A stretch of 64,000 nt of DNA. It comes from Cellulosimicrobium marinum. Lineage in GTDB: Bacteria; Actinomycetota; Actinomycetes; Actinomycetales; Cellulomonadaceae. Shown piece after piece: positions 5,352 to 41,822 of the stretch. The notes under the pieces were generated by a model. That model saw only the letters and a list, made by a program, of their open reading frames with translations, was not told where the DNA came from and made no database searches. A program made the position numbers and the translations under genes. Within the stretch, counting starts at the first letter, position 1, and every line of letters begins with the position of its first letter. The stretch is from positions 124,001 to 188,000 of the forward strand of contig NZ_JAJBZH010000005.1 in the NCBI RefSeq assembly GCF_020551945.1, in the 5' to 3' direction.

Positions 5352-6992
5352 GTGAGCGTTCGACGGGTCATGGGCATCGAGACCGAGTACGGCGTGCTGC
5401 AGCCCGGGCAGCCCTTGGCGAACCCGATGCTCATGTCGAGCCAGGTGGTCACGACGTACCGTGCGCTCGCGGCGCGCAGCGACGGTGCGCGGGGTCGGGC
5501 ACGGTGGGACTACGACGACGAGGACCCGCTGCAGGACGCGCGCGGGTTCCACGTGCCGCGGGCGTCGGCGCACCCGTCGCTGCTCACGGACGACCCGGCC
5601 GCTCCGGCGCCGTCGGGCCCGGTGGCGGGGCAGCGTGAGGGCACGTTCCAGGAGGTGGCGCGGCCGACGACGGAGGAGTACGACGACCCGAGCGCGGCGA
5701 ACGTCATCCTGACGAACGGGGCGCGGTTGTACGTCGACCACGCGCACCCGGAGTACTCGTCGCCGGAGGTGACGGTGCCGCACGACGTGGTGTGCTGGGA
5801 CGTGGCGGGGGAGCGGGTGATGCTGGCGGCGTCGCGGGAGCTGGCGAACGCTCCGGGGGCGCCGGTGGTGCTGTACAAGAACAACGTGGACGGCAAGGGT
5901 GCCAGCTACGGCACGCACGAGAACTACCTGGTGGAGCGGGACGTGCCGTTCGGCGTGGTGGTGGAGGTGCTGACGCCGTTCCTCGTGACGCGGCAGGTGT
6001 TCGCGGGGTCGGGCCGGGTGGGTCTGGGGCCGACGGGCGACGAGCAGGGGTTCCAGGTCTCGCAGCGGGCGGACTACGTCGAGGCGGAGGTGGGCCTGGA
6101 GACGACGTTGCGGCGCCCGATCGTGAACACGCGGGACGAGCCGCACGCGGACCGGGCGCGGTGGCGGCGGCTGCACCTGATCATCGGGGACGCGAACCTG
6201 TTCGAGACGGCGACGTACCTCAAGACGGGCACGGCGTCGTTGGTGCTGTTCGTGGTGGAGAACCTGGACGCCCTGGGCGCGGAGGTGCGTGCGCGGCTCG
6301 CGGGGCTGCGGCTGGCGGACCCGGTGGCCGACGTCGCGCGCGTGAGCCGGGACCTGGACCTGACGCGCAGGCTGTCGTTGGCTGACGGTCGTGCGCTGAC
6401 GGCGCTGGAGATCCAGCGGGAGTACCTGGAGGTGGCGGCGTCCGCGGTGCGTGACCTCGCGGGCCCGGGCGGGGTGGACGCGCCGACGCGGGACGTGCTG
6501 GAGCGGTGGGACTCGGTGCTGACGCGGCTCGCGACGGACCGGGACGGGTGCGCGCGCGACGTGGAGTGGGTCGCGAAGCTGCGGCTGCTGGACCGGTTGC
6601 GCGAGCGGGACGGGCTGGACTGGGGGCACCCGCGGCTGGCGGCCCTGGACCTGCAGTGGTCGGACGTGCGGCCGGAGCGGGGGATCTACCACCGGCTCCT
6701 CGCGGCGGGCGCGGTCGACCGGGTGGTCGACGAGCGCGAGGTCGGTGCGGCGGTGCACCACGCGCCGGAGGACACGCGGGCGTACTTCCGCGGCGAGGTG
6801 ATGGCCCGGTACGGCGACCAGGTGTCGGCGGCGAGCTGGGACTCGGTGATCTTCGACGTGCCCGGTGCGCCGTCGTTGCAGCGGGTGCCGATGATGGACC
6901 CGCTGCGGGGGACGCGGGCGCACATCGGGGCGCTGCTCGACGCGAGCCCGGACGCGGCCGCCCTCCTGGCGGGTCTGGCGGCACCGGGCTGA
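5352..6992 (+). CDS. dop: Pup deamidase/depupylase Dop
   Basis: Glutamine-synthetase-fold enzyme that removes Pup from substrates and, in species whose Pup ends in Gln, deamidates it. 546 aa. The N-terminal Mg/ATP motif is GIETEYGV, and D129 in LYVDHAHPEY is the conserved catalytic Asp. The KNNVDGKGASYGTHENYL and NTRDEPHAD blocks match both Dop and PafA. The Dop-loop insertion after residue 40 separates it from PafA and is enlarged by a Pro/Ala-rich stretch (about 76-105), which makes the protein longer than the usual 500 or so aa. The leaderless GTG start is set by the -10 at 5340. The following pup gene is 134 bp downstream. Its Pup ends in Glu, so only depupylation should be needed here. 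Confidence 0.96.
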   Translation: MSVRRVMGIETEYGVLQPGQPLANPMLMSSQVVTTYRALAARSDGARGRARWDYDDEDPLQDARGFHVPRASAHPSLLTDDPAAPAPSGPVAGQREGTFQEVARPTTEEYDDPSAANVILTNGARLYVDHAHPEYSSPEVTVPHDVVCWDVAGERVMLAASRELANAPGAPVVLYKNNVDGKGASYGTHENYLVERDVPFGVVVEVLTPFLVTRQVFAGSGRVGLGPTGDEQGFQVSQRADYVEAEVGLETTLRRPIVNTRDEPHADRARWRRLHLIIGDANLFETATYLKTGTASLVLFVVENLDALGAEVRARLAGLRLADPVADVARVSRDLDLTRRLSLADGRALTALEIQREYLEVAASAVRDLAGPGGVDAPTRDVLERWDSVLTRLATDRDGCARDVEWVAKLRLLDRLRERDGLDWGHPRLAALDLQWSDVRPERGIYHRLLAAGAVDRVVDEREVGAAVHHAPEDTRAYFRGEVMARYGDQVSAASWDSVIFDVPGAPSLQRVPMMDPLRGTRAHIGALLDASPDAAALLAGLAAPG

Positions 6993-40939: not shown

Positions 40940-41013
40940 TGCCCCGGGTGGGATTCGAACCCACACTGGATCGGGTTTGAGCCGAACGCCTCTGCCGGTT
41001 GGGCTACCGGGGC
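40940..41013 (-). tRNA. tRNA with anticodon CAA (Leu) and short variable region
   Basis: 74-nt gene on the minus strand. The acceptor stem GCCCCGG/CCGGGGC is perfect, the discriminator is A, and no CCA is encoded. The T-arm is GTGGG-TTCGAAT-CCCAC. The D-arm is a 3-bp GCC/GGC stem with a large loop. The anticodon loop is CTCAAAC with anticodon CAA at 40977-40979. The anticodon stem contains a U-U mismatch one pair from its outer end. The variable region is only 5 nt (CCAGT), whereas bacterial tRNA-Leu normally has a long variable arm. It may be an atypical leucine isoacceptor or may be charged with something else. It converges on the M1 peptidase gene. Confidence 0.85.
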
Positions 41014-41131
41014 TTGCGCGGGCGTGCCGCGCGGGCTCCATCGAACCACACGCGAGGGCGCGGCACGGACACCGACCGGGATCACAGTCCGCGCCGGGCG
41101 AAACCCGGGGGCGGCAGGGGGTGGTGCGCAC

Positions 41132-41137
41132 TACGAT
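41132..41137 (+). promoter_or_regulatory. -10 element TACGAT, leaderless pdtaR promoter
   Basis: TACGAT ends 7 nt before GTG 41145 with no Shine-Dalgarno sequence. Confidence 0.55.
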
Positions 41138-41144
41138 GTTCAGC

Positions 41145-41822
41145 GTGAGTGACGAGACAGCGCAGCCCGAGGACAAGAAGCCGCTCGACCTGCCCCCGAT
41201 GATCGAGCCCCAGCCCGCCGAGACGCCGCAGCCGTCGACGGGTCGTCCCGCGCGTCGCGCGGTCGTCGCCGAGGACGAGGCGCTCATCCGCCTCGACGTC
41301 GTCGAGACGCTGCGCGAGGCCGGGTTCGACGTGGTCGGCGAGGCCGGCGACGGCGCGACGGCGGTCAAGCTGGCGCTGGAGCTCAAGCCGGACGTCGTGG
41401 TCATGGACGTGAAGATGCCCGAGCTCGACGGCATCTCCGCGGCCGAGCAGATCGGCAAGGCGCACGCCGCGCCGGTCGTCCTGCTCACCGCGTTCTCCCA
41501 GGCCGAGCTCGTCGAGCGCGCGCGGGACGCCGGCGCCATGGCGTACGTGGTCAAGCCCTTCACCCCGGCCGACCTGCTCCCCGCGGTCGAGATCGCGATC
41601 TCGCGCTACTCGCAGATCTCGGCGCTCGAGTCCGAGGTCGCCGACCTCGCGGAGCGGTTCGAGACGCGCAAGCGCGTGGACCGTGCCAAGGGCCTGCTCA
41701 TGACGAAGATGGGCCTGTCGGAGCCGGAGTCGTTCCGCTGGATCCAGAAGACGTCGATGGACCGTCGCCTCACGATGCGCGAGGTCGCGGACGCCGTCAT
41801 CGAGCAGGTCGGCGGGGCCTGA
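41145..41822 (+). CDS. pdtaR: ANTAR-domain response regulator (PdtaR-like antiterminator)
   Basis: 225 aa. An N-terminal Pro/Glu-rich extension of about 35 residues precedes a receiver domain (RRAVVAEDEALIRLD, with the phospho-acceptor Asp in DVVVMDVKMPELDG, Thr in LLTAFSQ and Lys in YVVKPF). A coiled linker leads to a C-terminal ANTAR domain (RKRVDRAKGLLMTKMGLSE, then SFRWIQKTSMDRRLTMREVA), which binds RNA and prevents termination when activated. In M. tuberculosis the orthologue PdtaR (Rv1626) pairs with the kinase PdtaS and lies upstream of polA, as here. No kinase gene is in this window. GTG 41145 is set by the -10. Confidence 0.93.
   Translation: MSDETAQPEDKKPLDLPPMIEPQPAETPQPSTGRPARRAVVAEDEALIRLDVVETLREAGFDVVGEAGDGATAVKLALELKPDVVVMDVKMPELDGISAAEQIGKAHAAPVVLLTAFSQAELVERARDAGAMAYVVKPFTPADLLPAVEIAISRYSQISALESEVADLAERFETRKRVDRAKGLLMTKMGLSEPESFRWIQKTSMDRRLTMREVADAVIEQVGGA

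Follow-up and report, generated by a model that had tools for sequence, protein, structure and literature searches.

In this study, we conclude that the 74-nt gene analysed here is very probably the only tRNA-Leu(CAA) of the cell, a working elongator for the rare UUG codon that would belong to an old actinobacterial class I UUR line and be charged by the standard LeuRS. The gene has an ordinary role and an unusual form, and it is typical of its clade. Three features of the window, the whole stretch of 64,000 nucleotides from Cellulosimicrobium marinum, bear on this reading:

40940..41013, minus strand: tRNA-Leu(CAA), 74 nt, class I (ARAGORN, Rfam, direct reading, covariation)
41045..41050, minus strand: candidate -10 element TGTGGT of the tRNA promoter (inferred, alignment by eye)
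41136..41822, plus strand: pdtaR-type response regulator (receiver and ANTAR domains), a conserved neighbour divergent from the tRNA

The short tRNA-Leu(CAA) and the leucine tRNA set

Read on the minus strand from its 5' end at 41013 to the discriminator A73 at 40940, the gene is GCCCCGG UA GCCCAACCGGCAGAGGC G UUCGG CUCAAAC CCGAU CCAGU GUGGG UUCGAAU CCCAC CCGGGGC A. ARAGORN called tRNA-Leu(CAA) at 41013-40940, and Rfam RF00005 matched 40940-41013 at 54.4 bits (gathering score, 29), all stems being free of gaps. The acceptor stem (GCCCCGG/CCGGGGC) and T stem (GUGGG/CCCAC) are accompanied by a D stem of 3 bp (GCC/GGC) and an anticodon stem (UUCGG/CCGAU) that carries a U27-U43 mismatch and the loop CUCAAAC. 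The variable region, CCAGU, has 5 nt, which places the molecule outside class II (variable arm of at least 10 nt). The CAA anticodon, the length, the short variable region, the D stem and the mismatch were thus all present, on the minus strand, as the initial annotation had described them. A 3-bp D stem is normal in leucine tRNA, including the long-armed ones of this genome. The 3' CCA is not encoded, A73 being followed by CCC, and several intact tRNAs of the same genome likewise lack it. In the minimum-energy fold (z = -1.66, from single-strand folding of a GC-rich tRNA), the acceptor and T stems were present and the D-arm was paired differently. A plus-strand match to the Rfam family 'Plastid-ycf2' (28.4 bits; cutoff 65.7) corresponds to the complement of the tRNA and was discarded as an artefact.

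The genome (3.83 Mb in 14 contigs) has 49 tRNA genes, five of which are for leucine (CAA, UAA, UAG, CAG and GAG). Leu(CAA) and Leu(UAA) are the sole UUR decoders and both have a 5-nt variable region, whereas the CUN readers UAG, CAG and GAG are long-armed, with variable arms of 13, 15 and 17 nt, respectively; variable-arm length in this genome thus follows the codon box, short for UUR and long for CUN. No second tRNA-Leu(CAA) was present among the 49 tRNAs, and the window gene is the only one that decodes UUG by Watson-Crick pairing. Its closest relative is tRNA-Leu(UAA), with 77% identity overall and 94% in the D-arm. Over the whole molecule, identity was 65-66% to the long-armed leucine tRNAs versus 65-68% to the other class I tRNAs of the genome, and outside the D-arm the window tRNA is no nearer to the former than to the latter. 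Assignment of the isotype by whole-molecule similarity was uninformative. Elsewhere in the genome, a tRNA-like gene (L042; G000:C10:97120-97190) has a 6-nt anticodon loop and an anticodon that cannot be assigned; its counterparts in the genus are 73-74 nt long, with 77-85% identity.

All 74 positions were identical in 15 of the 16 other Cellulosimicrobium genomes, the exception being G003 with a match of 86% only. The identical 74 nt were also present in four other genera of the family, and identity was 92-97% in other families of the order. Among close relatives, the D loop and the acceptor stem were the variable parts, and most of the stem changes affected both partners of a pair. Across 40 distinct class I CAA sequences, covariation extended to all four helices and 97.9% of pair cells were standard; changes on both sides occurred in 147 cells, compared with 39.6 in shuffles (none of 500 as high), and the covariation score was 0.532, compared with 0.164 in shuffles and 0.04-0.09 in slid controls. 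The D-stem pair 10-25 appeared as G10-C25, U10-A25 or C10-G25 among the homologues. Genus-wide identity together with compensatory changes in four helices puts the tRNA far beyond chance. Of 102 distinct short CAA sequences, 8 have the U27-U43 mismatch and 41 have a mismatch of some kind in the anticodon stem, most often at 31-39; judged from these alignments, U27-U43 is a trait fixed in the lineage and not damage.

The pdtaR locus and the tRNA class in Actinomycetes

The candidate -10 element lies within the TGTGGTTCGATGG block, which is kept 5' of the tRNA genus-wide in alignment by eye. A scan of the tRNA-Leu(CAA) locus for a sigma-70 consensus promoter and a terminator found none. In actinobacterial promoters the sigma-70 consensus is often absent. 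Conservation beside pdtaR, a check that the initial annotation had proposed, was borne out across the class. Among the 118 named-genome loci listed, which were drawn with a class I pattern and are no census, pdtaR lies 24-456 nt from a class I tRNA-Leu(CAA) in 85. At these 85 loci, the tRNA is always upstream of pdtaR, divergent in 73 and codirectional in 12. This linkage indicates that tRNA-Leu(CAA) is one orthologous gene, inherited class-wide.

When a pattern covering both tRNA classes was run on the 296 genomes of the class, 246 matched, and the matches listed include class I UUR leucine tRNAs from many families. The named genomes listed with a class I tRNA-Leu(CAA) belong to Mycobacterium, Corynebacterium, Rhodococcus, Gordonia, Streptomyces, Kitasatospora, Bifidobacterium, Gardnerella, Micromonospora, Salinispora, Nocardioides, Amycolatopsis, Geodermatophilus, Planktophila, Actinomyces and others. 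Both UAA and CAA are class I in Mycobacterium, Corynebacterium, Rhodococcus, Gordonia, Amycolatopsis, Pseudonocardia, Geodermatophilus, Cellulomonas, Actinomyces and Cellulosimicrobium, whereas UAA is class II but CAA class I in Streptomyces (where UAA is bldA), Kitasatospora, Salinispora and Actinoplanes. A long-armed bldA (UAA) beside a short-armed CAA was seen in the Streptomyces genomes L172, L195, L200, L210 and L223. Matches to a stricter class I pattern were only sporadic in the other classes of the phylum.

The same pdtaR locus holds a class II tRNA-Leu(CAA) in the families f5, f6, f17 and f19 of the window's order and in genome G024, a member of the window's own family. A long-armed CAA gene at the orthologous locus in relatives indicates that the class was switched in place. 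When the tRNA class was mapped onto a pdtaR tree (114 rows), no fewer than 4 changes were required, and the well-supported branches alone force 2. Class I has a wider range at the locus than class II, under an uneven sampling in which the class I loci came via the class I pattern. The G024 gene (L096, L290) joins an acceptor stem of class I type, GCCCCGG, to a D-arm and variable arm of class II, which suggests that its core was exchanged by recombination and that it is likely a recombinant. We hold with moderate confidence that the UUR tRNA-Leu of most Actinomycetes is a housekeeping class I tRNA, that the class at the pdtaR locus changed two or more times, probably four, with at least one change in the form of a chimera (G024, L096), and that actinobacterial LeuRS would have to recognise both classes solely by the core they share.

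Leucine identity, UUG reading and the charging enzyme

In E. coli tRNA-Leu, the long arm is no leucine determinant, and E. coli LeuRS relies on A73, A15-U48, G18G19 and A20a (PMC9976931). The idea that the long arm serves LeuRS therefore fails for the E. coli enzyme, the best characterised in bacteria, and the window tRNA keeps all of the actual determinants. Among 221 class I UUR genes, some of them identical, A73 occurs in 215, U48 in 202 and A9 in 193, whereas 14 of 15 class II UUR genes have G9; the D-arm reads GCCC...GGC in class I versus GCGG...CGC in class II. Position 9 and these D-arm positions are involved in base triples and in stacking within the tRNA core; the short form would accordingly appear to be a refitted molecule and no simple truncation. 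In charging the short tRNA, an ordinary LeuRS would rely on A73 together with the core formed by the D and T loops (A14, A15-U48, G18G19, A20a). This core would be held in the class I way, with A9 instead of G9, C12-G23 instead of G12-C23 and the variable loop CCAGU, so that the long arm may not be needed.

TTG is rare, at 22 of the 15,547 codons in the predicted genes of the window, and TTA occurs once. Seven of these 22 TTG codons lie in the Dop (Pup deamidase) gene at 5352-6992; in alignment with solved Dop (depupylase, PDB 4b0r/5lrt), five correspond to Leu, one to Asn and one to Tyr. For 138 TTG codons in the pdtaR genes of class I lineages, 61% of the aligned residues in other species were Leu, and the Leu share in comparison columns was 69% for CTG/CTC, 15% for ATG, 10% for GTG/GTC and 6% for TTC/TTT. 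TTG columns are thus rich in leucine like those of CTG/CTC and unlike those of ATG, GTG or TTC, and on this codon comparison UUG is read as leucine.

The genome has two LeuRS genes, of 1002 and 841 aa, which are 37% and 42% identical over two aligned parts. The primary enzyme is full length and matches those of T. thermophilus and E. coli through to the C-terminus. The second, of 841 aa and also full-length, is located on the minus strand at L289:6586-9111 (G000:C12), where it adjoins a gene for a multi-pass membrane protein. It is present in most of Cellulosimicrobium and mainly confined to that genus, but it was not found in the congeneric genomes G006 and G008. This second gene could represent an inhibitor-resistant copy. 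A single LeuRS was present in 24 of the 25 named genomes with a class I tRNA-Leu(CAA), the exception being C. cellulans PW of the same genus, so one LeuRS would normally serve both tRNA classes. Shorter second LeuRS genes, lacking matches to the editing-domain region, were observed in G018 and G022.

Phage biology offers further support. The tRNA-Leu-CAA gene of M. smegmatis is a phage attachment site, overlapped by attB-11. The gene is not restored when phage Gaia integrates, and this phage brings a copy of its own (PMC10865867), which implies that the tRNA is needed. In phage Thibault (Omegavirus), an attP-like 54-nt stretch beside the integrase matches the 3' part of a mycobacterial class I tRNA, with the short variable region.

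Several other readings were weighed. A decaying gene, as had initially been considered, might be suspected from the U-U mismatch and the unencoded CCA, but intact tRNAs of the same genome share the latter and other class I leucine tRNAs the former; the identity across 15 of 16 genomes, the compensatory changes in every helix and the status of the gene as the only CAA tRNA contradict decay, to which we give next to no probability. A tRNA pseudogene with relaxed constraint and broken stems was accordingly rejected, as conservation rules it out. The place upstream of pdtaR, conserved and mostly divergent, would fit a regulatory or non-translational tRNA-like RNA linked to that gene; yet 12 of the 85 loci run in the same direction and the spacing varies from 24 to 456 nt, which argues that no shared tRNA/pdtaR control region is kept, and the anticodon loop is conserved in what is the genome's sole CAA tRNA. 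Such a regulatory RNA is very improbable, and the earlier suggestion of a mischarged or regulatory tRNA is without support, the TTG codons standing at conserved leucine positions.

A tRNA of other identity, which would place a non-leucine residue at UUG at least sometimes, is favoured by the class I shape, by the class I Thr, Arg and Met tRNAs as the nearest non-leucine ones (66-68% over the whole molecule) and by the precedent of a human class I 'Leu-CAA' that is in fact a mutated tRNA-Met (PMC8450103). Against it stand the leucine features A73, A15-U48, G18G19, A20a and the 3-bp D stem (PMC9976931), the nearer kinship with tRNA-Leu(UAA), the leucine columns at TTG and the plain class II tRNA-Leu(CAA) at the same locus in relatives, so we consider this reading unlikely, though less so than the others. 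The presence of two LeuRS genes raised the question of a dedicated second enzyme charging the short leucine tRNAs; since the second gene is mainly genus-limited and missing in some members (G006, G008), and 24 of 25 genomes have a single LeuRS, this was rejected as hardly credible. An unusual leucine isoacceptor, also among the initial proposals, is the reading that the class I form, the role as sole CAA decoder and the retained leucine determinants support.

Known systems and significance

According to the 2023 review by Giege and Eriani, short-armed tRNA-Leu is limited to animal mitochondria (PMC9976931). The window tRNA resembles animal mitochondrial tRNA-Leu(UUR) in UUR reading, the short variable region, A73, A14 and anticodon-stem mismatches (PMC9976931), but it is bacterial, has a full canonical D/T-loop core and strong stems, and its charging would fall to a bacterial LeuRS of full size that handles class II tRNAs as well. 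With bacterial class II tRNA-Leu (E. coli type; here CAG, GAG and UAG), it shares a Leu anticodon, A73, A14/A15, A15-U48, G18G19, A20a and the 3-bp D stem, whereas it has a 5-nt variable loop without the long arm, and A9, C12-G23 and C13 replace G9, G12-C23 and G13.

A short-armed tRNA-Leu TAG in a mycobacterial tRNA cluster has been noted once (PMC6582537). The short-armed leucine tRNAs of bacterial tRNA arrays share with the window tRNA the short variable loop and the GUAGCCCAA...GGCAGAGGC D-arm, but they are extra, clustered and mostly redundant, in contrast to a single-copy housekeeping gene beside pdtaR. Apparent arrays with several leucine tRNAs within 8 kb were seen in Chloroflexi, Cyanobacteria, Acidobacteria, Planctomycetes and Sandaracinaceae (L193, L209, L213, L245, L249, L251, L256, L260 and L265) and in Actinomycetes (L203, L214 and L262); array leucine tRNAs of several anticodons, CUN included, often had short variable regions. 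In M. tuberculosis, only tRNA-Leu-2, 3 and 5 are named as long-armed (PMC11541572); three long-armed tRNAs fit two short ones, of which that paper makes no point. We found no description of a chromosomal short UUR tRNA-Leu of actinobacteria in the open-licence literature; as tRNA databases must already list such genes as tRNA-Leu, and only that literature was covered, priority is uncertain.

The textbook long-arm rule thus has a large and little-noticed exception in most of the actinobacteria sampled. The long arm is given as the leucine hallmark in reviews and tools, and it is broken in a housekeeping gene of Mycobacterium, Corynebacterium, Streptomyces and Bifidobacterium. Isotype models and tRNA-seq pipelines built on a long Leu arm therefore call for caution, and the exception is also relevant to toxins and enzymes, such as MenT3, that discriminate between tRNAs by the variable arm. 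The pdtaR locus provides a rare case of tRNA class change at a fixed locus and, with mostly one LeuRS that would serve both classes, these organisms offer a natural test of LeuRS recognition.
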